Positions 50,131 to 64,000 of a DNA stretch of 64,000 nucleotides are shown here, piece by piece. Position numbers and translations under genes: made by a program. Position 1 is the stretch's first letter. Every line of letters begins with the position of its first letter. The stretch spans positions 2,790,001 to 2,854,000 of the forward strand of contig NZ_CP020046.1 of NCBI RefSeq assembly GCF_002028405.1, in the 5' to 3' direction. The notes under the pieces were generated by a model. The model did no database searches, was not told the DNA's origin, and saw only the letters and a program-made list of their open reading frames with translations. The stretch comes from Thiomonas intermedia (GTDB lineage Bacteria > Pseudomonadota > Gammaproteobacteria > Burkholderiales > Burkholderiaceae_C).

Positions 50131-51108
50131 TTACATCAGCACATGCTCGCCCGCATTGTTCTGCCCGAGGATGATGTAGTTGACCTTGCGGATGTCGGCG
50201 AGCGTGAGGCCGCCTGCGTAGGAAATGGAGCTCTGCAGATCCTCCTCCATTTCGCGCAGCGTATCGGCTAGGCGGCCCTTCAGCGGCTCCAGAATGCGCT
50301 TGCCCTCGACGTTGCGGTAGGTGCCCTTGTTGAATTCGGAGGCGCTGCCGTAATACTCCTTGAACAACTGGCCGTTGACTTCCACGGTCTGTCCGGGCGA
50401 CTCCTCATGTCCTGCCAGCATGGAGCCGATCATGACCATGCTGGCCCCGAAGCGCACGCTCTTGGCGATGTCGCCATGTTCGCGGATGCCCCCGTCGGCG
50501 ATGATGGGTTTGGTCGCCACCCGCGCGCACCACTTCAGCGCCGAGAGTTGCCACCCGCCCGTACCGAAGCCGGTTTTCATGCGGGTGATGCACACCTTGC
50601 CCGGGCCTATGCCTACTTTGGTGGCATCGGCGCCCCAGGCTTCGAGATCGATCACCGCCTCGGGCGTGCCGATATTGCCGGCGACGACGAAGGCTTGCGG
50701 CAGCTTGTGCTTGATGTGCGCGATCATGCGCTGCACGCTGTCGGCGTGGCCGTGGGCGATGTCGATGGTGATGTAATCGGCACCCGTGCCCTCGGCGGCG
50801 AGTTGGTCGATGAGCGCCTTGTCATCCGCCTTGACGCCCAGCGAAATGGAGACGAATAAACCGGCATCGCGCATCTGGCGGGCGAAGGCCGCGACGTCGA
50901 CATCAAAGCGGTGCATCACATAAAAGTAGTCGTTGGCCGCCAGCCACCGGCAGACGTTCGCATCCACCACGGTCTTCATATTGGCGGGCACCACCGGCAG
51001 ACGAAAGCGCCGCCCGCCAAACTCGGTTGACGGATCGCATTGGCTGCGGCTCTCCACCCGGCACTTGCGCGGCAACAGCAGAATGTTGTCGTAGTCGAAG
51101 ATGTGCAT
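50131..51108 (-). CDS. guaC: GMP reductase
   Basis: 325 residues, the short GuaC type of the IMPDH/GMPR family. Catalytic Cys in [20 protein letters not shown], phosphate loop [14 protein letters not shown]. Converts GMP to IMP using NADPH. ATG at 51108 chosen because it gives the family N-terminus [12 protein letters not shown]; the upstream 20 codons in frame run into an attenuator-like hairpin. Forms part of the purine set scattered in the region (purM, amn). Confidence 0.94.
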
Positions 51109-51144
51109 CACGGTCTCCAGAAGGGGCGCACATTTGCGGCGCGC

Positions 51145-51180
51145 ACAAAAAACCGGGCGGCAAGACATTTGCGGCCCGGT
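51145..51180 (-). terminator. Terminator-like hairpin in the guaC leader
   Basis: On the minus strand ACCGGGC pairs with GCCCGGT, with an inner GCAA/TTGC pairing, followed by a run of six T. It ends about 37 bases before the guaC ATG. The gene on its upstream side runs the other way, so there is no minus-strand gene for it to terminate, making a transcription attenuator for guaC likely. The 10-mer CATTTGCGGC occurs twice (51131 and 51166). Confidence 0.65.
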
Positions 51181-51253
51181 GATTCATTCTAGGCCCCGGG
51201 GGGGATCGGACCGAGGCAGGGGACATTCGACCCCCGCGCCCTAAAATCCGTCC

Positions 51254-53626
51254 ATGTCTGCCCTCATCCAACAACTCAATCCCGAGCAGCACGCCGCTGT
51301 CACCCTGCCTGCTGAGAATGCCCTGATCCTCGCTGGCGCCGGAAGCGGAAAAACGCGGGTGCTCACCACGCGCATTGCCTGGCTGATTTCCACCGGGCAG
51401 GTCTCGCCCGCTGGCATTCTGGCCGTGACCTTCACCAACAAGGCGGCGAAGGAGATGATGGCGCGGCTGTCTGCCCAGCTTCCCATTCCGGTGAGGGGGA
51501 TGTGGATCGGGACTTTCCACGGGCTGTGCAACCGATTTCTGCGGGCGCACTGGCGCGAGGCCGGGTTGCCCCAGACTTTCCAGATTCTCGACATCCAGGA
51601 TCAGCTCGCCAGTATCAAGCGGCTGCTCAAAGGGCTGAATGTGGACGAGGAGCGCCATCCGCCCAAGCAGGTGCAATGGTTCATCAACGGCGCCAAGGAG
51701 CAGGGCCTGCGTCCGGGCGACGTGGAGGCGCGCGATCAGCAAAGCCGGCAACTGGCCGAGATCTATCTGGCCTATGAGGCGCAATGCACCCGCGACGGCG
51801 TGGCCGATTTTGCGGAGCTGCTGCTGCGCTCCTACGAGATCCTGCGCGATAACGCGCCAATCCGCTCGCATTACCGTCAGCGCTTCCGCCACATCCTGGT
51901 GGACGAGTTCCAGGACACCAATCGCCTGCAGTACCAGTGGCTCAAACTGCTTGCCGGACCGGAGGATGCGCACGCCGCCTGCGTGTTCGCCGTGGGCGAT
52001 GACGATCAGAGCATCTATGCCTTCCGCGGGGCGCACGCCGGCAATATGGATGATTACCAGCGCGAGTTCCATGTGCGTCATTTCATCAAGCTCGAACGCA
52101 ACTACCGCTCGCATGGCCACATCCTCGATACGGCCAATACCCTGATCGCGAACAATACGCGGCGCCTGGGCAAAAACCTGCGCACGGAGTCCGGCGCGGG
52201 TGAGCCGATCAGGGTGTTCGAGGCGCCGAGCGACTATGCCGAAGCCCAGTGGCTGATCGAGGAAATCCGGCAGTTGTTGCGGGATGGACTGACGCCCAGC
52301 GAGATCGCCGTGCTGTATCGCGCCAACGCACTGTCGCGGGTCATCGAAGGGGCGCTGTTCAATGCCGGGCTACCTTATCGCGTGTATGGCGGGCTGCGGT
52401 TTTTCGAACGCGCCGAAGTCAAGCATGCGCTGGCCTACCTGCGCTTGCTCGACAACCCGCAGGACGACACCGCTTTCCTGCGCGTCGTCAACTTCCCCGC
52501 GCGCGGCATCGGGGCGCGCACCCTGGAACAGTTGCAGGACGCCGCCCGCCTGCGCGCCACGCCATTGAGCGAAGCCGTGGATGCTCTCGGGGGGCGCGGT
52601 GCGGCCAGTCTGCAGGCCTTTCTCGATCTGGTGGCGCAGATGCGCTTTCAGACCGCGGCCATGAGCCTGCCCGATCTCGTTCGGCATGTCCTTGAAGCCA
52701 GCGGCCTCAACGCGCATTACCGCGAGGAACGCGAAGGGCAGGAGCGGCTGGAAAACCTGGAAGAACTGGTCAACGCCGCTGCCGCCTTCGTCACTCAGGA
52801 AGGCTTTGGTCTGCAAGCGACGGCGCAGCAGCGCCAGGCCCTGAGCGCAGAAGCGGCGGGCGCTGCGTCCGACAGCCTTGCGGCCATCGACGGCATCGAC
52901 CCCGCCACGGGCGAAACCCTCTCGCCGCTGACCGCCTTTCTCACCCACGCTGCGCTCGAAGCCGGCGACAACCAGGCGCAGAACGGGCAGGACGCCATTC
53001 AGATGATGACCGTCCACGCGGCCAAGGGACTGGAGTTCGACGCCGTGTTCATCACCGGCCTGGAAGAAGGTTTGTTCCCGCACGAGAATGCGCTGAGCGA
53101 AGCCGACGGCGTCGAAGAAGAGCGCCGCCTGATGTATGTGGCCATCACCCGAGCGCGCAAACGGCTCTACCTCAGCCTGGCCCAGACCCGCATGCTCCAC
53201 GGCCAGACGCGTTACAACCTGCGCAGCCGGTTCTTCGATGAACTGCCGGTCGAGTCCCTCAAATGGATCAGCGCCAGGCAACCGGGGTTTGGTGGCGGCT
53301 TCGGGGTCGATCAGCACAGCAACTGGAGCTATGCCCCGAAAACAGCGGTGCCCGCCTTCAATTCGCCGACCTCCAGGGGCGGACAGACGCGGCTGACAGC
53401 GAACGCCACGCCGTCGGTTGCAGACAGTTCGAGCATGCCCCAGACGGGTACGCGCGCGCATGGACTGCGTTCCGGGCAGTCTGTGTTTCACAACAAGTTC
53501 GGCGAAGGCGTGGTGCTGAGTCTGGAAGGCGCCGGAGACGAGGCCCGCGCCCAGGTCCGGTTCAACCGCCACGGCACCAAATGGCTCGCGCTGAACATCG
53601 CCAAACTCACGCCGGTGAACGATTGA
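51254..53626 (+). CDS. uvrD: UvrD-type DNA helicase
   Basis: 790 residues, superfamily 1A helicase. Motif I AGAGSGKTR, II DEFQDTN, III DDDQSIYAFRGA, V TVHAAKGLEFD, VI MYVAITRARKRLYL. C-terminal Tudor-like domain around GEGVVLSLEG. Acts in nucleotide excision and mismatch repair. ATG at 51254. Followed by a 430-base gap with palindromic repeats and the left end of an IS element. Confidence 0.93.
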   Translation: MSALIQQLNPEQHAAVTLPAENALILAGAGSGKTRVLTTRIAWLISTGQVSPAGILAVTFTNKAAKEMMARLSAQLPIPVRGMWIGTFHGLCNRFLRAHWREAGLPQTFQILDIQDQLASIKRLLKGLNVDEERHPPKQVQWFINGAKEQGLRPGDVEARDQQSRQLAEIYLAYEAQCTRDGVADFAELLLRSYEILRDNAPIRSHYRQRFRHILVDEFQDTNRLQYQWLKLLAGPEDAHAACVFAVGDDDQSIYAFRGAHAGNMDDYQREFHVRHFIKLERNYRSHGHILDTANTLIANNTRRLGKNLRTESGAGEPIRVFEAPSDYAEAQWLIEEIRQLLRDGLTPSEIAVLYRANALSRVIEGALFNAGLPYRVYGGLRFFERAEVKHALAYLRLLDNPQDDTAFLRVVNFPARGIGARTLEQLQDAARLRATPLSEAVDALGGRGAASLQAFLDLVAQMRFQTAAMSLPDLVRHVLEASGLNAHYREEREGQERLENLEELVNAAAAFVTQEGFGLQATAQQRQALSAEAAGAASDSLAAIDGIDPATGETLSPLTAFLTHAALEAGDNQAQNGQDAIQMMTVHAAKGLEFDAVFITGLEEGLFPHENALSEADGVEEERRLMYVAITRARKRLYLSLAQTRMLHGQTRYNLRSRFFDELPVESLKWISARQPGFGGGFGVDQHSNWSYAPKTAVPAFNSPTSRGGQTRLTANATPSVADSSSMPQTGTRAHGLRSGQSVFHNKFGEGVVLSLEGAGDEARAQVRFNRHGTKWLALNIAKLTPVND

Positions 53627-53680
53627 TCCGGCCTGGAGAGGGATGAACGGGACAATGGGCCTCGCCATGCAAGCGTCTCC

Positions 53681-53890
53681 CCCTCCCAACCTCCCCCACG
53701 GCGTGGGGGAGGAGAAGACTGCGCTGCGCGCGATCTGCGTAAGCCCTCCCAACCTCCCCCACGGCGTGGGGGAGGAGAAAACTGCGCTGCGCGCGATCCG
53801 CGTAAGCCCCTTCCAACCTCCTCCACACTGTGAGGGAGGCGTGTTGGCTCCCTCTCCACTTGTGGGGAGGGTTGGGGTGGGGTGCCGTTT
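53681..53890. repeat. 63-bp tandem palindromic repeats (REP-like) after uvrD
   Basis: Two near-identical 63-bp units (from 53681 and 53744) and a third diverged unit (from about 53807), followed by a different palindrome (CTCTCCACTTGTGGGGAG). Each full unit carries a 10-bp-arm inverted repeat CCTCCCCCAC-GGC-GTGGGGGAGG and then a spacer rich in CTGCGCTGCGCGCGAT. No open frame of interest. Resembles the REP/BIME class of intergenic repeats. Confidence 0.85.
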
Positions 53891-53976
53891 CAAACTGCAA
53901 CGTGCCGGATCAATAGGACCACGCCGACAAGCCGCTTGCGCCCGCCATCGCGGAAACCTACTCCGCGTTGCTTTAA

Positions 53977-55297
53977 CAGGCCGTTGAAAAATCCCCCGCT
54001 GGCGCCTGCGTCCACCGCTACGATCTGAAGGCATCCGAGAACAACCCAGTCGAGGAAGATGAGAGGCAACCAAGACTTTCAGGGGGCGATGTTCAGCTAC
54101 ATCAGCCTTGAAGAACGAGTGCCGCAGGCACACCCGCTGCGCAAGCTGCGCGCCGTGGTTGATGCGCTGCTGGCGACGATGACCGGCGAGTTCGAAGCGG
54201 TGTATGCCCGCCGGGGTCGACCCTCGGTGCCGCCGGAGATGCTGCTCAAGGCCCTGCTGCTGCAGATCCTGTTCTCCATCCGCAGCGAGCGCCAGTTGGT
54301 CGAGGCCATCAACTACAACCTGCTGTACCGCTGGTTTGTTGGCCTGAATATCGAGGACAAGGTCTGGGACCACTCCACCTTCAGCGCCAACCGCGAACGC
54401 CTGTTCAACGAAGACCTTGCCCGTGCCTTCTTCGAGCGCGTCAAGCTCAGCGCCCAGTGGGGCAAGCTCGCCAGCGATGAGCACTTCAGCGTGGACGGCA
54501 CGCTGATTGAGGCCTGGGCCTCGCACAAGAGCTTCAAGCGCAAAGACGATGACAGCGACACGCCGCCCGGACGCAACCCCGAGGTGGACTTCAAAGGGCA
54601 GGAGCGCTGCAACGACACCCACGAGAGCACCACGGACGCCGATGCCCGCCTGTTCAAGAAGAGCCAGGGCGACAAGTCCCGCTTGTGCCACATGGGGCAT
54701 ATCCTCATGGAGAACCGCAACGGGCTGATCGTGGATGTCCAGATCACCCATGCCAGTGGCACCGCCGAGCGCGAGGCGGCGCTGGCGATGCTCAATCGCC
54801 GGGGCAACAAGAACAAGCGGGCCACGGTCGGGGCCGACAAAGGCTACGACAGTAAGGCCTTTAGCAAGGGTTGCCGCAAACGCAAGGTCACGCCCCACGT
54901 GGCGGCCAAGGACAAGCATTCGGCGGTGGACGGCCGCATCAAACGGCACGAAGGCTACAAGACCAGCCTGAAGGTGCGCAAGCGCATTGAGGAGGCCTTT
55001 GGCTGGATCAAGACGGTGGGCGGTCTTGCCAAGACCAAACTGATAGGCCAAGTCAAGCTCACGGGCCAGGCGCTGCTGTGCTTTGCCACCTACAACATGG
55101 TGCGAATGGGCAGCATCGGTGGATGGTGGGACGCGCATCATGCGTAAGCCGTGGGATAGGTGCGCCCGAAAGGGGCAGCATGGCCTGCAAACAGGGCGCA
55201 ATGACCGTCGCAATCGCTGCGCTGATGCATCGAGGCGACTCGTTTCTTCGAAATCAGCACCCGTGGCCCTTTCAATGAGCACTTTTTCAACGGCCTG
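53977..55297 (+). mobile_element. IS5-family insertion sequence, intact, 1321 bp
   Basis: Perfect 15-bp terminal inverted repeats CAGGCCGTTGAAAAA (53977-53991) and its complement (55283-55297), flanked on both sides by TTAA (53973-53976 and 55298-55301), a YTAR-type 4-bp target duplication as known for IS5-group elements. One transposase gene inside. Complete ends and target duplication suggest a recent insertion. Confidence 0.93.
54059..55147 (+). CDS. IS5-family transposase
   Basis: 362 residues, uninterrupted. DDE catalytic candidates: Asp in HFSVDGTLIEAW, Asp in VGADKGYDSKAF, and Glu in RKRIEEAFGWIK, the usual IS5-type R-x3-E end. N-terminal DUF772-like region with HPLRKLRAVVDALL and RGRPSVPPEMLLKALLLQ. 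Likely functional. About 135 bases of non-coding sequence separate its stop from the right end. Confidence 0.94.
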   Translation: MRGNQDFQGAMFSYISLEERVPQAHPLRKLRAVVDALLATMTGEFEAVYARRGRPSVPPEMLLKALLLQILFSIRSERQLVEAINYNLLYRWFVGLNIEDKVWDHSTFSANRERLFNEDLARAFFERVKLSAQWGKLASDEHFSVDGTLIEAWASHKSFKRKDDDSDTPPGRNPEVDFKGQERCNDTHESTTDADARLFKKSQGDKSRLCHMGHILMENRNGLIVDVQITHASGTAEREAALAMLNRRGNKNKRATVGADKGYDSKAFSKGCRKRKVTPHVAAKDKHSAVDGRIKRHEGYKTSLKVRKRIEEAFGWIKTVGGLAKTKLIGQVKLTGQALLCFATYNMVRMGSIGGWWDAHHA

Positions 55298-55301
55298 TTA
55301 A

Positions 55302-55485
55302 GCCTTCCCCAGAACGCCGACAAATGTAAATTTATTGTTTACATCGGTTACGTTTAGAGATTGAAGTGTCGCTCATTGGAGTCGTTGAGCTCTCAGCGGG
55401 CCTCGGCATCGAGCCCGCTGAGCATGCAAGTGACATTGCTCACGTCGTGAGCTGTCCATTCATATCAACGGCTTCGGGGGGAGCA
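55302..55485 (+). promoter_or_regulatory. Leader of the chemotaxis receptor gene
   Basis: AT-rich stretch with palindrome TGTAAA-N7-TTTACA (55325-55343), possibly an operator or promoter part. Downstream a perfect 10-bp stem CTCAGCGGGC/GCCCGCTGAG (55392-55401 with 55413-55422, 11-base loop) lies about 65-95 bases before the ATG with no T-tract, so it is a structured 5' UTR candidate. No sigma-28 consensus is evident. Confidence 0.5.
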
Positions 55486-57084
55486 ATGTTTCAAAACTTC
55501 AAGATAGGCACGCGCCTAGGGATAGGCTTTGGCACGATGGTGGCTCTGTTGATCGCTCTTGCGGCCATCGCCGTATGGAGTGTGCAGTCGATGAAACGCG
55601 CCACTGACGAGGCCACCCGAACAGCCTGGCCGCAAGCGCACAGTGTGAGCGAGATCCGGTCAGCAGCCATTCAGATGGCATCCGACTGCAGGGATTTGCT
55701 TCTGACCCAGGATGCTGCAGAGCGCACGCAGATCCAGAACAAGATTCAAACCAGCGAGCAGGCCGCCCAGGCCGATCTGCAGAAGCTGAGCGGCGAAGTT
55801 CGAAGCGACAGGAGCCGACAACTCTTGGCGCAGACCGCCACCCGGTTGCAGACGTTTGATCAGGCCATGCAGTTCTGCGCTACCACGCAGTCGACGAATG
55901 GCGATGCCATGGGCGTCTTCAGACAGAAGGTCAGACCCGATGAAGACGCGGTCCGGTCGGATCTGCGCCTGCTGGATGATCACTTTGTCGGGCTTTTCGG
56001 CGTTGCCACGCAGCAGGCTGACTCTGCCTACGGCCTTGCACTCGATTCGTCTCTTGGCGCGGCGATTTTTGCGATGGTTCTCGCCATGGTGTTTGGCTTT
56101 GCGCTGACCCGATCCATCACCCGCCCTCTCGGAACGGCGGTTACCGTCGCCAGGCGGGTGGCCGCGGGTGACCTCACGGTGCAGATCGGAGCGACGACCC
56201 GCGATGAAACCGGTCAGCTGCTGGACGCGATGTCGGGCATGGTCGGGCGGCTGACGGCAACACTCCATTCCGTTCGATCCGCGGCCGATCTGCTTTCTTC
56301 GGCTTCGACCCAAGTCTCCGCCACCTCGCAAAGCCTGGCCCAGGCGACCTCCGAGCAGGCGGCCTCGATCGAGGAAACCTCCGCGACGCTGGAGCAGTCG
56401 GCCGCCTCGATAAGCCAGAACGCCGACAACGCCCGTTTGACCGACTCCATGGCGCAACAAGCCACCCAGCAGGCGCAGCAAGGAGGCACGGCGGTTCAAG
56501 CCACGGTTTCAGCCATGAAGAGCATCGCCGAGCGCATCTCCGTGGTCGACGACATTGCCTATCAGACCAATATGCTGGCGCTCAACGCGGCTATCGAGGC
56601 GGCGCGTGCCGGTGCTCACGGCAAGGGCTTCGCCGTGGTTGCCGCAGAGGTGCGCAAGCTGGCGGAGAAAAGCCAGGCTGCCGCCAAGGAGATCGGCGAT
56701 CTGGCGTCTTCCTCCGTGGGACAGGCCGAAACGGCGGGCCGTCTGCTGGAACAGGTGGTGCCGGCCATTGCGAAAACATCCGATCTGGTACAGGAGATCA
56801 AGGCTGCGTCCGAGGAACAGTCCACCGGCATCCAGCAGATCAATCAGGCGGTCTCCCAGCTCTCGGGGGTGACGCAGCAAAACGCATCGGCTTCCGAAGA
56901 ACTGGCGGCAACGGCCGAGGAGATGAATGCCCAGGCGCAGCAACTTCAGGATGCGGTGAATCAGTTCAAGCTGAACGACGCGGAGCCGAATGGGCATGCG
57001 TCGAAGCCCAGCGCCAGGCACAGTCCGTCGCCGGTTCGCGTCGGAGCCAGACTGGCTTCGGCAGAGGGATTCGTGCGGTTCTGA
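55486..57084 (+). CDS. Methyl-accepting chemotaxis protein
   Basis: 532 residues from ATG 55486 (GGGGGGAG before it). N-terminal membrane segment (about residues 11-33), periplasmic 4-helix-bundle-type sensor with two Cys, second membrane segment (about 190-212), HAMP domain ([20 protein letters not shown]), and signalling domain with the hairpin tip [18 protein letters not shown][19 protein letters not shown]. Short C-terminal tail without a pentapeptide tether. Ligand unknown. No che genes nearby. Confidence 0.94.
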
Positions 57085-57169
57085 AAGAAGGACGCCGACA
57101 TGATCCTGCTTGGAACAGTAGGCACATGTCGACTTGCGCTGGAATGCGGCGGGCTTGCCTTGTGGTGCC

Positions 57170-57207
57170 GGTGCCGGTGAGAGGCGTCGCTCCCTCGGCT
57201 TTTGCAT
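57170..57207 (-). other. Degenerate copy of the tRNA-Thr 3' half (candidate attachment-site remnant)
   Basis: Ungapped alignment with 59661-59698 inside tRNA-Thr gives 31 identical bases of 38, including an 11-base exact start GGTGCCGGTGA, then GTCG, CCCTCG and GCAT blocks. Orientation is the same as the tRNA. It covers the acceptor 3' strand, T arm, variable loop and part of the anticodon stem. It lies between the receptor gene and the AraC gene and contains no intact tRNA. Confidence 0.65.
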
Positions 57208-57301
57208 GGCAAGTGTGAAACATAAAACTGCGAAAGACGCGTGAATACGATGTATTCATGGAAATTTCATCGCATGCTTTGGGGTATGACCCGTTATTTT
57301 T

Positions 57302-58246
57302 CTAAACAGACATCTGACCTTCTGTCGTTTGCGCATGGCGCCCGGCGCTTTCTGTGTAGCGCCGTGGTGACAGCCCCATGGCTCTCTTGAACGCTGCGCT
57401 GAAAGAGCTTTCCGATTCGTAGCCTAGCTCCCGGGCCACGACTGACACTCGTGCCCGAGGTTCTGCTAGTCGCTTGGCGGCGATGAGCATGCGCAACTTA
57501 GTCAGGTAGTCCATCGGCGCATGGCCGACGGTCGTCTTGAAACGTGTGGCGAAAGCGGTGCGGGACATGGCGCTGACGCCGGCAAGCGACGCTACCGTCC
57601 ATCGCTGGGACGGTGCGTCGTGCATCGCGGAAATCGCCGCGCCCATCCGCGAGTCGGCGAGCGCGTACAGCCACCCAGGCCGCGCATGGGCAACCTCGGC
57701 TAAGTGAAACCGCAATATCTTGACAAGTGCGATGTGTGCCAGATGGTCGACGACGACTTCGCAGCCAGGCCGACCCCGTTGGAGCTCGTCGATCATCTGA
57801 TCGATCGCCTCTCGCAGGGTCGCCCTGGCCTCAGGTTCCTTGACCCGCACTACGGTGTCCAGCTCGCTGAACAGAAAGCGTGAAAATCCGCCATCGAACT
57901 CGAAGTGGGCGGCAAACATCATGCATCGGCCGCCTCCGTTGTAGGCCGCGACCGAGCCGTTCGGCCGACCGTCGAAGACGGCCGCGGCATCGACCGGTGG
58001 CAGGGCCAGGTCGCTGGCCATCACGAAGGGGCGACCGCTCGGCAGCATGAAGCAATCGCCAGCGTGCATATGGATGCCCTCGGCATCGCCCTGCACTTGC
58101 AGCCAGCAAGTACCGGACTCCACGCAATAGAGGAAAGCGCCCTCATGCGCTGGGAACTGGATGGCGACGTCTCCGCCGACGTCCGTCGCCCCGACCGTGA
58201 TGCTGCGAGGTCTGGACTGTCGAATGACCTCTGAAAGCGGATCCAT
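57302..58246 (-). CDS. AraC-family transcriptional regulator
   Basis: 314 residues. N-terminal cupin-type sensor (about 1-180) and C-terminal double HTH with WTVASLAGVSAMSRTAFATRFK and VARELGYESESSFSAAFKRAMG, ending SPRRYTES. Divergent from the reductase gene it probably controls. Codon use appears less GC-biased than in the housekeeping genes around it. Located between the tRNA-Thr remnant and tRNA-Thr. Confidence 0.93.
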   Translation of the reverse strand: MDPLSEVIRQSRPRSITVGATDVGGDVAIQFPAHEGAFLYCVESGTCWLQVQGDAEGIHMHAGDCFMLPSGRPFVMASDLALPPVDAAAVFDGRPNGSVAAYNGGGRCMMFAAHFEFDGGFSRFLFSELDTVVRVKEPEARATLREAIDQMIDELQRGRPGCEVVVDHLAHIALVKILRFHLAEVAHARPGWLYALADSRMGAAISAMHDAPSQRWTVASLAGVSAMSRTAFATRFKTTVGHAPMDYLTKLRMLIAAKRLAEPRARVSVVARELGYESESSFSAAFKRAMGLSPRRYTESAGRHAQTTEGQMSV

Positions 58247-58255
58247 CGAAATTTA

Positions 58256-58291
58256 GAACGATCGAATATGTATATGGAACGAATCATTATG
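58256..58291. promoter_or_regulatory. Candidate AraC-type direct-repeat operator
   Basis: Two imperfect direct repeats, GAACGATCGAATATG (58256-58270) and GAACGAATCATTATG (58277-58291), start 21 bases apart, i.e. two helical turns, the usual arrangement of AraC-family sites. They lie just upstream of the araC-type ATG and about 110 bases before the reductase ATG. Confidence 0.55.
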
Positions 58292-58398
58292 GATCATCCC
58301 ACTCTTAATCCTTACAGTGATTCCACTGACGCAGGCGTCCGTGGATGTCGAGATCCACAGACCCAGACGTCAATCCGCCCGTTACATGGAGAAACCTG

Positions 58399-59517
58399 AT
58401 GTCTTTAAACCAAGCCGCCTGGATCAATGCCAAGGGCCAGCCGCTTAGCGTGTCCGAGGCACCAATGCCTCGGCCTGGTGCAGGAGAAATTCTGGTTCGC
58501 AATCGTGCAATCGCATTGAATTCTTTTGACGGCATCGTCCAGACGCTGGGCAGCATGGTCACGCCTTGGGTGAGCTATCCCGCGATCCTCGGATCGGACG
58601 TGGCCGGCGAGGTCGTCGTGGTCGGAGCATCGGTGTCCCGTTTCAAGCCGGGTGACCGGGTTTTAGGGCTGGCGCTGGGCATCGACAAGATCGCCAACCG
58701 GTCGGTCGAGGGTGCTTTTCAGAAGTACGTGATCCTGCGGCAAGAGGCTGCGACGGAACTGCCGGACTCGATAAGCTTCGAACGGGCGGCGGTACTGCCG
58801 TTGGCCATCGCCACAGCAGCATGTGGGCTGTTCCTCGACGATCAACTTGGCCTGCGCGCACCTTCCGTGCAGCGGTCTGAGCCGACCGGCAAGACCGTGC
58901 TCATTTGGGGTGGGTCGACCTGTGTCGGGAGCGCGGCCATCCAGCTCGCTGTAGCGGCGGGCTACGAGGTCGTGACGACAGCTTCGCCAAAGAACTTTGA
59001 CTACGTCAGAGGACTCGGCGCCAGCTATGTGTTCGACTACAACGATACGGATGTCGTCGTGACCATGGCGAAGCACCTCGCCGACCGAGACATGGCGGGT
59101 GCGTTGGCTATTGCGGTGGGCTCCGGCGCCTCATGCATCGACGTCATGAGCCGTTGCCGAGGCCAGCGAATGGTCTCGATGGCGAGTTCTCCGCTGCCGA
59201 TCAACGATGCGCCGTTGACCAGGCAGTTCTTCTGGAAGTTGACGCGCTTGCCGCAACTGGCCGCTGGCTTTCTGGGGTTGGCGATCCGAGCGCGCGTCAG
59301 AGGGGTTGCCACTCGAGCGATCTGGGGGACCGCGCTGATGAAGGGCACGCTTGGCAAGCAGATCTTCAATGAATTTCTCGGCCCAGCTCTGGCGAGCGGA
59401 CGTTTGGTCCCAGCACCCAAACCACTCGTAGTGGGGCATTCGCTCGAAGCGCTTCCAGAAGCGCTGGCTTTACTTCGTCGTGGTGTTTCGGCCAGCAAGG
59501 TTGTCGTATCGCTCTGA
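58399..59517 (+). CDS. Medium-chain dehydrogenase/reductase (quinone oxidoreductase-like)
   Basis: 372 residues from ATG 58399 (GGAG before it). N-terminal GroES-like domain (ILGSDVAGEVVVVGASVSRFKPGDRV) and Rossmann domain with VLIWGGSTCVGSAAIQLA. The structural zinc cysteines of classic alcohol dehydrogenases are absent, so a zinc-independent NADPH-dependent enoyl or quinone reductase is likely. Paired with the divergent AraC regulator. Substrate unknown. Confidence 0.88.
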   Translation: MSLNQAAWINAKGQPLSVSEAPMPRPGAGEILVRNRAIALNSFDGIVQTLGSMVTPWVSYPAILGSDVAGEVVVVGASVSRFKPGDRVLGLALGIDKIANRSVEGAFQKYVILRQEAATELPDSISFERAAVLPLAIATAACGLFLDDQLGLRAPSVQRSEPTGKTVLIWGGSTCVGSAAIQLAVAAGYEVVTTASPKNFDYVRGLGASYVFDYNDTDVVVTMAKHLADRDMAGALAIAVGSGASCIDVMSRCRGQRMVSMASSPLPINDAPLTRQFFWKLTRLPQLAAGFLGLAIRARVRGVATRAIWGTALMKGTLGKQIFNEFLGPALASGRLVPAPKPLVVGHSLEALPEALALLRRGVSASKVVVSL

Positions 59518-59596
59518 AAGTCCAGATCTTCTCCGTCAAGAGCAACTCAGGTGATTCGCAGTGGGAATCGACCCCCATAAAAGGGCATTCTGAACG

Positions 59597-59626
59597 AAAA
59601 AAAGCTCGACTGGTGAGGTCGAGCTT
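59597..59626 (-). terminator. Terminator of tRNA-Thr
   Basis: AAGCTCGAC/GTCGAGCTT 9-bp stem with 7-base loop, followed on the minus strand by a run of seven T. Located 34 bases after the tRNA 3' end. Confidence 0.88.
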
Positions 59627-59659
59627 TCTCCATAAATCATTGATTTACTTTGCTTATAT

Positions 59660-59735
59660 TGGTGCCGGTGAAAGGAGTCGAACCCTCGACCTTCGCATTA
59701 CGAATGCGCTGCTCTACCAACTGAGCTACACCGGC
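59660..59735 (-). tRNA. tRNA-Thr (CGU)
   Basis: 76 bases with encoded CCA. On the minus strand: acceptor GCCGGTG/CACCGGC, D arm GCTC-AGTTGGTA-GAGC, anticodon loop TTCGTAA giving anticodon CGU (reads ACG), T arm with TTCGACT loop. Sequence of the anticodon arm and variable loop equals that of E. coli thrW as I know it. Its 3' half is duplicated in degraded form at 57170-57207. Confidence 0.97.
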
Positions 59736-59779
59736 GAAGCCAGCGATTCTATACCAATGGCGCGGCCTGATCTTCGTCT

Positions 59780-60790
59780 TCAGGCGGATTCGGCGTGGTA
59801 GCGCTGCAGCAGCTCAACTTCTTCGCTTGATCCGAGCATCACGCTGCAACGCTCGTGCAGAGAAGAGGGCGCGATGTCGAGAATGCGCTGCTTGCCATTC
59901 GTTGCCGCGCCGCCGGCCTGTTCCACCAGCAAGCTCATGGGATTGGCTTCGTACAGCAGACGCAGCTTGCCGGGTTTGTTCGGCTCGCGCTGGTCCCACG
60001 GATAGAGGAACACGCCGCCACGCATGAGAATGCGATGCACGTCGGCCACCATGCTGCCCACCCAGCGCATGTTGAAGTCGCGTCCGCGCGGGCCGTCCTT
60101 GCCTTGCAGGCATTCGTCGATGTAGCGCTTCACTGGAGGCGCCCAGTGACGCAGGTTCGACATATTGATGGAGAACTCGCTGGTGCTGGCGGGAATCTTC
60201 AGGCCGTCCTGCGTGAGCACGAAGCTGCCCTGCTCGCGATCGAGGGTGAAGACGGCCACGCCATGGCCCACGGTGAGGACGAGCTGGGTTTGCGGGCCAT
60301 ACACGCAGTAACCCGCGGCAACCTGCCGGGCGCCAGCCTGAAGAAAATGCGCTTCGCTGACTTCACCGACGTTGCCTGGCAACTGCAGCACGGAAAAAAT
60401 GGTGCCGATGGTGACGTCGACGTCGATGTTGGAGGAGCCGTCGAGCGGGTCGAACAGCAGCAGGTACTCGCCGCGCGGGTAGTGTTCCGAGACCGGGAAC
60501 ACGGTGTCCATTTCTTCCGAGGCCATGGCAGCCAGGTGTCCGCCCCACTCGTTGGCGTGGATCAGCACGTCGTTGGCGATGACGTCGAGCTTTTTCTGCA
60601 CTTCGCCCTGCACGTTGCCGGTGCCGGCGGAGCCGAGCACATCGCCCAGGGCGCCTTTGTTCACGGCAATGCTGATGCGCTTGCAGGCACGCGCGACGAC
60701 TTCGACGAGCAGGCGCAGATGCGGGGTGATGGCGCCATGCTCGCGCTCCTGTTCAACGAGGTAGCGGGTGAGGTTGACGGATTGGGTCAT
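59780..60790 (-). CDS. fbp: Fructose-1,6-bisphosphatase class I
   Basis: 336 residues from ATG 60790. Metal/substrate motifs [34 protein letters not shown] and [12 protein letters not shown]. Hydrolyses fructose 1,6-bisphosphate in gluconeogenesis (and in the Calvin cycle where present; no cbb genes in this window). Downstream of pepN on the same strand with a 35-base gap. The upstream in-frame extension overlaps pepN and is not coding. Confidence 0.96.
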
Positions 60791-60825
60791 GGGGGAGTCT
60801 CTGGAAGGAAAGGGGCGCGCCGCGA

Positions 60826-63498
60826 TCAGTTGGCCAGGGCACGTTCGATGATTTCTCGGGTGTCGGAGGACAGACCGGCGCTGTCTGCCACGGTGCGCAG
60901 CGCCTGTTGCGCGGCGTCGCGATACGGAGGCGCGAGTTTGCGCCAGCGGTCGAGGGCCCGTGCCAGCCGGGCAGCGACCTGCGGGTTGATGGCATCGAGC
61001 GCCTGAACCTGTTCGGCCCAGAACGCGTAGCCCGCACCGTCGGCGCGGTGGAAGGCGCCTGGATTGGCCTGGCAGTAGGCGAACAGCACGCTGCGGGCTC
61101 GGTTGGGGTTGTGGATGGAGAAGGCGGGGTGCCGCATCAGGGCGCGCACGCGCTCGAGCTGCAGGCCGTCGCGGTCGGGCGCGCTGGCCTGCAGCGCGAA
61201 CCATTTGTCCATGACCAGCGGTTCTTCGGCGAACTGGGTGGCGAAGCGCTCAAGCGCAGGCTTGGCCAGATCGGCGCCAACATGGACCAGGGCTGTCAGT
61301 GCGGCGAAGCGGTCGGTCATGTTGTCGGCATCCTTGACACGCTGATAGACCCGTCCCAGCCAAGTCGCCTGCCCCAGTTCGCACCAATGCGCCTGGGCCT
61401 GATTGCGCAGGGCGCGGCGGCCGGCGCTGGCGAAATCGGGGCTGTAACCGCCTTCGGGGGCGAGGGTGTCCCAGAGGGTCTGCCAGTCTTGTTCGAGTTC
61501 CTGGGCCAGCGCGGTGCGCAGCGCCTGGCGGGCGCGGTGGATGCGAGGAGGGTCGACCTCTTCGAGCTGTTCGGCGATGTAGGCCTCGCCCGGCGGGGTG
61601 AGCAGCAGATCCTTGAATGCGGGATCGAGCTTCGGGTCGCGGAGCACGGCGCGCAGAGCGTCGAGATAAGGGGCGTCGAGACGCAGTGCTTCGCCGCGAA
61701 CGGCGGCCAGCACGCGCGACAGCGTCAGTCGCTGCGCCGCTTCCCAACGGTTGAACGGGTCGGCGTCATGGGCGAGCAAATGCAGCAACTCGGCATCGGT
61801 GTAGGCGTAGTCGAGGATCACCGGGGCCGAGAATCCGCGCAGCAACGAAGGGGTGACGGTGTCGGCGTCGATCTGCTCGAAGACGAAGGTCTGCTCGGAT
61901 GCGGTGAGCACGAGCACGGTCGAGGTGCCCTTGTCCTGACCTTGCAGCCACAGGGGCAGGGCGCCGCCCCGGGCGTCGAGCAAGCCCATGGCGACAGGAA
62001 TGACCTGCGGCTGCTTGCCCGACTGGCCGGGCGTGTCGGGCAGGGTTTGACGCAGCGTGAGGGTGTAGGTGCGGGCGGCCGAATCGAGCGCGCCGCTGGC
62101 GTGCAGGCGCGGCGTGCCGGCCTGGCTGTACCAGCGCTTGAAAGCGATCAGGTGCGCGGCCAGAGCCGACTCCGGGTTGGCATCGGCCATGGCCTGGGCA
62201 AAGTCGTCGCAGGTCACGGCCTGGCCGTCGAAGCGCTGGAAGTACAGATCCATCCCCTTGCGGAAGCCGGATCGGCCCACCAGGGTCTGCATCATGCGGA
62301 CCACTTCGGCGCCCTTCTCATAGACGGTGGCGGTGTAGAAATTGTCGATGGCCTGGTATTGCTCGGGGCGAACCGGATGCGCCATCGGGCCCGCGTCCTC
62401 GGAAAACTGCGCGGTACGCAACACCCGCACGTCCTCGATGCGCTTGACCGCGCGTGCGGACTCACCGCCCGAAGCGGCGGCCAGGTCCTGGCTGAATTCC
62501 TGGTCGCGGAAGACGGTGAGGCCTTCCTTGAGACTGAGCTGGAACCAGTCGCGGCAGGTGATGCGGTCGCCCGTCCAGTTGTGGAAATACTCGTGGCCGA
62601 CCACGCTCTCGATGCCGTCGTAGTCGACATCGGTGGCGGTGGCCGGGTTGGCCAGCACATACTTGGTATTGAAGATGTTGAGGCCCTTGTTTTCCATGGC
62701 CCCCATGTTGAAGTCGCTCACGGCCACGATCATGAAACGATCCAGATCGAGGCTCAGGCCGAAGCGCTGTTCGTCCCACGCGATCGACTTGATGAGCGAC
62801 TCCATCGCGTGCTCGGTCTTGTCGAGATCGCCCGCGCGCACATAGACCTGCAGCAGATGCGTCTTGCCCGAGGCGGCCCGCACGGTCTGTTCGCGGCACA
62901 CCAGATTGCCGCCGACCAGCGCGAACAGATAGCAGGGCTTGGGAAACGGATCGTCCCACACCGCCTCATGGCGGCCGCCGTCCAGGTCGGCCTGCGACAC
63001 CAGATTGCCGTTGGACAGCAGCACCGGGTACTGCGTCTTGTCGGCCCGCAGCGTGACGTGAAAGCGGCTCATCACATCCGGGCGGTCGGGCCAATAGGTG
63101 ATGCGGCGAAAGCCCTCGGCTTCGCATTGGGTGAAGAACGCGCCGCCCGACATGTAAAGACCCGCCAGCTGGGTGTTGGCCTGGGGGACGTTGAGCGTTT
63201 CGATCTCCAGCGTGAACGTCTCGGGCAGCTTGTCGAGCACCAGCGTGTTGCCGTCCTGGCGGAAGGCGACGAATTCGCCGTTCACCTTCAGCGTCAGCAG
63301 GGTGATGTCTTCACCGTCGAGCACCAGCGGGGCCGACTCGGCGGCGCCGTCAACGCGGCGCACCGCCATGCGGCTGTGCACGCGCGTCTTCGCGGGGTCG
63401 AGATCGAAGCGCAGGTGCACGCTGTCGATGGCGTAGGCCGGGGGGGTGTACTCCGCCAGGCGGGTGATGCGGGCGGGCGTGTCGGGTTTGGCGGTCAT
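60826..63498 (-). CDS. pepN: Aminopeptidase N
   Basis: 890 residues, M1 metallopeptidase. Exopeptidase motif [11 protein letters not shown] and zinc motif HEYFH with the third ligand Glu in [10 protein letters not shown]-terminal helical ERAP-like domain. Cytosolic peptide turnover. ATG at 63498 gives the family start; the long open frame upstream covers part of prfB in another frame. Confidence 0.96.
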
Positions 63499-63545
63499 GG
63501 CAGTGCGGGTTTCAGCGGGGCGATAGGGGACAGGAGCCGTGAGGA

Positions 63546-64000
63546 TCAAAGGCCGGATTTCAGGCTGGCGGTGATGAATTCGTCGAGATCGCCGTCGAGC
63601 ACCTTCTGGGTGTTGGAGATCTCGACATTCGTCCGCAGATCCTTGATGCGGCTCTGGTCGAGCACATAGCTGCGGATCTGGTGGCCCCAGCCCACATCGC
63701 TCTTGCTCGACTCGAGCTTCTGCTGTTCGGCCATGCGCTTGCGCATCTCGTGCTCGTAGAGCCGCGAGCGCAACATCTGCCAGGCCTCGTCGCGGTTGCG
63801 ATGCTGGCTGCGGTCGTTCTGGCACTGCACCACGATGCCCGTAGGCAGGTGCGTGAGGCGCACCGCGGAGTCGGTCTTGTTGATGTGCTGGCCGCCGGCG
63901 CCGCTGGCGCGAAAGGTGTCGGTGCGCACGTCGGCGGGGTTGATGTCGATCTCGATGGAGTCGTCCACCTCGGGGTAGACGAACACGCTGGCGAAGCTGG
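63546..64000 (-). CDS. prfB: Peptide chain release factor 2, C-terminal part
   Basis: The frame is open to the right window edge; about 150 residues are visible. The peptidyl-tRNA hydrolysis motif GGQ lies in [17 protein letters not shown], followed by [16 protein letters not shown]. The SPF stop-recognition motif and the usual programmed frameshift would be upstream, outside the window. Stop at 63546, 47 bases before pepN. Confidence 0.95.

Follow-up and report, generated by a model that had tools for sequence, protein, structure and literature searches.

A probable eroded remnant of an integrative element, carrying an AraC-type regulator and an oxidoreductase, at a tRNA-Thr gene of Thiomonas intermedia

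The window analyzed here is a 64,000-nucleotide stretch of the Thiomonas intermedia genome (NZ_CP020046.1, positions 2,790,001 to 2,854,000), and all coordinates without a contig label refer to it. Between an MCP gene and a tRNA-Thr gene lie two divergently oriented genes, one coding for an AraC-type regulator with a Cupin_6 domain (57302 to 58246, reverse strand; PF12852, 1.8e-36) and the other for an MDR-type medium-chain dehydrogenase/reductase of ∼372 amino acids with ADH_N and ADH_zinc_N domains (58400 to 59517, forward strand). Both assignments come from domain matches, and no NCBIfam model scored above its cut-off for either protein. The longest reductase open reading frame starts at 58345, but alignment with a related locus from an uncultured beta-proteobacterial metagenome-assembled genome (L148) suggests that 58400 is probably the true start. 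The intergenic region (58247 to 58399) is probably a promoter/operator region, with a putative operator; its AraC-proximal half is conserved with L148 and, to a lesser extent, with another Thiomonas genome, G010. The two genes probably form a divergent regulator/oxidoreductase unit of an ordinary type in which, judging from the protein families, the AraC regulator may control the reductase according to the presence of a small reactive compound.

The distribution of this gene pair is patchy. It shares 76% DNA identity with L148 over 57375 to 59517, L148 being the one locus from a single contig scan with a single protein, a scan that reaches close relatives only. Comparable divergent pairs are present in 2 of the 12 other genus genomes, G010 (61% and 57% at the amino acid level) and G003 (38% and 47%), in both cases with other neighbors. 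The remaining genus genomes have weaker family-level matches, at no more than 34% for the regulator (G007) and no more than 39 to 40% over part of the protein for the reductase. The DNA at fbp beside the tRNA-Thr gene is, in contrast, 82 to 96% identical across the genus, which speaks for horizontal acquisition of the pair. The GC content of the segment is slightly lower than that of the window (0.600 versus 0.649), and third-position GC is 0.73 for the AraC gene and 0.64 for the reductase gene, compared with 0.73 for the MCP gene and 0.80 for uvrD.

The tRNA-Thr(CGT) gene (59660 to 59735, reverse strand), the presumed integration target, is intact by ARAGORN and Rfam (67.7 bits, with the Rfam match beginning at 59663), and the sequence shows that CCA is encoded. 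The original prediction described a 38-base ungapped match to its 3′ half, in the same orientation and on the 3′ side of the tRNA, and recomputation gives the same figure: 57170 to 57207 aligns with 59661 to 59698 at 31 of 38 positions (82%) and is also found by blastn, with orientation and side as described given the ARAGORN and Rfam placement of the tRNA. The distal copy is indeed degraded, as had been proposed, although its extent is better read as a 48-bp core at 57169 to 57216 (reverse strand; 35/48), a length borrowed from the Thiomonas genome G009, where the core copy is identical; owing to a GGTGCC repetition at 57164 to 57175, its outer end can be placed in more than one register. The ungapped tRNA score of 24 is the highest in 51001 to 59596, against a maximum of 16 in 300 dinucleotide shuffles of that stretch; the top score on the opposite strand of 1 to 59640 is 14, and those in 59741 to 64000 are 12 and 9. 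A whole-genome search with 57140 to 57215 returned the query itself and the tRNA-Thr gene (E value of 7.5e-4), all further matches having E values of at least 0.118, so this is not a sequence scattered over many unrelated sites. Because the repeat exceeds all shuffles and has no other genome match at an E value below 0.1, we regard it as real and specific. A chance match was considered and rejected on the shuffles (0/300) and the whole-genome search. No third copy of the tRNA tail was found in 57140 to 59740.

The DNA abutting the tRNA carries a second signature. The 110 bp outward from the tRNA (59550 to 59659) match element ends from two kinds of site, tRNA-Thr (G009) and tRNA-Pro (G005, G007, and G010). 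For all four ends this is the top anchored place in the window, with scores of 31, 29, 26, and 26 at or beside 59660, whereas the top scores at a distance of more than 150 bp are 9 to 12. Over 150 bp the G007 end does not differ from the G010 end, and we therefore treat the two as a single case. As 40-bp queries, the short G008, G010, and G007 flanks score 2, 1, and 1 at 59659. When the G009 element end is compared with these empty flanks, it scores 5 in G008 (a value reached at 0.2% or less of the places across that 1 kb), 1 in G010, and 0 in G007. The end includes CATTGATTTACT (59638 to 59649), a hairpin beside an A/T run (about 59597 to 59628), and GTGGGAATCGACCCCC (59561 to 59576). Across the 13 Thiomonas genomes there are four occurrences of the pattern CATTGATTTACT-N(5-14)-TGGT, against none in a reversed control, and all four are at tRNA 3′ ends, three of them tRNA-Pro(TGG) and the fourth the window tRNA-Thr; G007 and G010 are independent tests of the pattern, and the window and G005 are not, because it was chosen after both had been inspected. 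By its sequence likeness, the tRNA-proximal end is recognizable as belonging to a family of Thiomonas elements that carry integrases.

This family, to which the G009 and G007 integrases belong and whose characteristic tRNA-proximal end is present in the window, includes a 24-kb island in G007 contig C10, extending from tRNA-Pro (73950 to 74026) to a tRNA-tail repeat (98046 to 98093) that matches at 47 of 48 positions. This island codes for a MobA/VirD2-type relaxase and, immediately internal to the repeat, for a tyrosine integrase; its matching end ties the window end to a Thiomonas element that does carry an integrase. In G009, the 48-bp tRNA-Thr core is identical and an integrase gene starts 81 bp past it; in G002, a gene beside tRNA-Thr codes for an Arm-DNA-bind_3 integrase; and the window chromosome codes elsewhere for a related integrase (C1:789427-790470) with 64% identity to that of G009. 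We note that in G009 contig C354 (L122, 12300 to 12700) a single 48-bp tRNA-Thr core lies between the end of one element and the integrase end of another, a probable tandem accretion; the likeness of the left element end to the Arm-DNA-bind_3 type of G002 was judged by eye. In agreement with the original claim that no integrase is left in the segment, the window genome has 11 PF00589 integrase matches, all of them outside the window, and because the site-specific integrase gene is missing we file the segment as a remnant rather than an intact island.

Thirteen Thiomonas genomes, including the window genome (G000, with the window at C1:2790001-2854000), were searched for the corresponding locus. 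Eight of the 12 others (G002, G004, G005, G007, G008, G009, G010, and G011) have 1.5 kb of tRNA 3′ flank, and in the other four (G001, G003, G006, and G012) the contig runs out no more than 325 bases from the tRNA. DNA resembling 57302 to 59517 is absent beside tRNA-Thr in all eight, and the pair is thus not a fixed resident of this place among the genus genomes judged. Three of the 12 relatives have an insert-free site. In the closest relative, G008, the comparison proposed at the uvrD/receptor-tRNA-Thr junction shows the tRNA followed by the receptor (MCP) side after 58 bp, counted from the MCP stop codon and without the pair; in G010 and G007, ∼55 to 70 bp separate uvrD from tRNA-Thr, with neither the MCP gene nor the pair. 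The other five have other DNA or a rearrangement, again without the pair. The flanks of G008 and G007 are homologous (score of 20, with 0 of 2,000 shuffles as good; G008 versus G010, 109 of 2,000), and the short flank is therefore probably ancestral and the window arrangement derived. The MCP gene (55366 to 57084), which lies between uvrD and tRNA-Thr and is present there in G008 and absent in G007 and G010, is itself a variable insertion or loss. In G005, uvrD and tRNA-Thr/fbp (C2:1288483 and 2174811) are ∼886 kb apart and changed in relative orientation, a separating rearrangement. Across the family, a tRNA-Thr locus match was obtained in 103 of 120 genomes, and among 30 loci taken from these (the window's own and G007 included) an integrase-like open reading frame lies in the ∼1.5-kb flank of one, L182, by a crude phmmer search with seven integrases and with two flanks shorter than 500 bp; by these weak means, no marked integration hotspot was seen at tRNA-Thr outside the genus in the 30 loci.

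The distal end is less well preserved. The DNA between the decayed core and the AraC gene (57217 to 57301) is a possible relic of the integrase-side element end: six such ends were anchored to 57200 to 57234, and for four of them 0.0005 to 0.0016 of bins were as good and for two 0.12 to 0.13, the four good comparisons not being independent because the members are related. A profile of seven integrase-side ends missed 57217 to 57301, its top window match being at 59559 to 59573 with an E value of 3. The integrase locus of the window genome itself was included in both the anchored and the profile comparisons. Among relatives of the G009 integrase, the gene starts ∼80 to 120 bp from a tRNA-tail-like core whose sequence varies, as judged by eye from 15 integrase loci minus L134, L135, and L147 (L134 and L147 are absent from all comparisons). 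In the window, the end of the AraC gene (57302) lies 85 bp inward of the core, about where an integrase would begin. These observations hint that 57217 to 57301 derives from an integrase-side end.

On the host side, the stretch from the MCP stop to the distal copy (57086 to 57168) does not clearly match any of the 13 genus genomes. Its alignments with the G008 and G007 flanks are not significant (136 and 298 of 2,000 shuffles as good, respectively), and the left junction with host DNA is not clean. An anchored host-flank test at 57162 gives G008 a score of 7 (rank 114 of 63,955), G007 a rank of 1,970, and G010 nothing; this is suggestive for G008 only and the unanchored test is not significant, and we therefore do not use the host-side flank as proof of an attR. 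G008 alone among the other genus genomes has an MCP 3′ flank that matches through to the gene end.

The age of the repeat constrains how simple the history can be. Fourfold degenerate sites differ between the window and G008 by 0.129 in uvrD, 0.156 in the MCP gene, and 0.093 in fbp, so that a repeat made after the split from G008 should differ at roughly 2 to 4 of 48 sites; the distal copy differs at 13. A simple insertion after that split is thus not borne out, and the diverged repeat and its junction could reflect either an older insertion precisely excised in G008, stacked insertion relics, or a junction brought in by recombination.

The best explanation, to which we give a probability of roughly 0.78, is that 57169 to 59659 is what erosion has left of an integrative element that a tyrosine integrase recombined into the 3′ end of tRNA-Thr(CGT). 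The proposal of an integrase-mediated footprint at a tRNA 3′ end is supported by the intact tRNA with its repeat, the element-type end, the short junctions lacking the pair in relatives, and the patchy distribution of the pair in the genus. An integrative element would have inserted into the tRNA 3′ end, with the pair presumably traveling as part of it; the integrase and mobility genes would then have been deleted, leaving the AraC regulator and reductase, and the unselected distal repeat and host-side junction would have drifted.

An unlikely alternative is a layered history, in which two insertions at this tRNA, accreted in tandem, left the proximal end and the distal repeat, respectively, and the pair arrived on its own between the two relics, whether through homologous recombination, illegitimate insertion, or some other route. 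Such layering has a counterpart in the G009 core that joins two different element ends (the left one by eye), and would suit a distal repeat apparently older than the G008 split, a host-side junction that is not clean, and a pair that aligns with L148 only over 57375 to 59517, without either end. The arrangement of proximal end, pair, and repeat is, however, that of a single element, with no further tail copy between the two. Quite improbable, too, is an old segment that precise excision removed from G008 and other relatives: the diverged repeat does suggest an event predating the G008 split, but separate losses would be needed, and the host-side flank in the window should then resemble that of G008, to which it has no clear resemblance. 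Least credible of all is a chance match or tRNA-like pseudogene beside a resident locus, since the missing integrase and only mildly unusual composition that favor it must be set against a repeat score not reached in 300 shuffles, its shared orientation and side, the short junctions in three relatives and the absence of the pair in 8 of 8, and an element end directly against the tRNA.

Reading the segment as an element remnant places it among known systems. According to PMC2829063, which describes the tRNA-associated islands (ThGEI) of Thiomonas sp. 3As, almost all of the 19 islands have integrases and their direct repeats span 10 to 112 bp, and genomic islands are given as 10 to 200 kb in its introduction. 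The segment shares with those islands, as described there, the tRNA 3′ end, direct repeats, and acquired cargo, and differs in being ∼2.5 kb, in having no integrase, and in its strongly decayed repeat. The G007 tRNA-Pro island (C10:73950-98093) has a related tRNA-proximal end and the same order of intact tRNA, element, and 48-bp core repeat, but it differs in coding for a tyrosine integrase and a relaxase, in its near-perfect repeat, and in both the tRNA occupied and the cargo carried. The G009 element (C215 end; C354 core and integrase) is at the same tRNA, with a matching proximal end and a 48-bp core, but its core is identical and its integrase present, and C215 and C354 are unjoined in the assembly. 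Cis-mobilizable elements (CIMEs) have attachment-type ends and lack an integrase, as the segment does, although one of its cores has decayed to 35/48. The segment is a new case of a known kind, a decayed tRNA-targeted remnant, and such insertion is ordinary in bacteria; it adds one more example of tRNA-targeted elements eroding to a small gene pair and leaves the general view unchanged. It also suggests a marker, in that a short tRNA-adjacent sequence can reveal a past insertion despite a lost integrase and a decayed repeat. Mobility in trans is conceivable because the tRNA-proximal end is well kept, the distal core is recognizable, and a related integrase is encoded on the same chromosome; we consider it very doubtful that the remnant can still be mobilized in this way, but if it can, the regulator and reductase genes could travel as a two-gene cassette that codes for no recombinase of its own.

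Other features of this genome were also noted. An IS5-family transposase gene (NF033581, 1.2e-94) lies within perfect 19-bp inverted repeats at 53973 to 55301, between uvrD and the MCP gene, and at this site the aligned parts of G008 are separated by about 67 bp. A repeat whose core is palindromic (CCTCCCCCACGGCGTGGGGGAGG in two copies) is present three times at 53673 to 53839, at a spacing of 63 to 64 bp, and also matches a short stretch of G010 contig C14. The 20 kb searched of the small contig of the window genome (C2:1-20000, L198) has 99.8% identity to a plasmid record with tra genes (MN366357.1).
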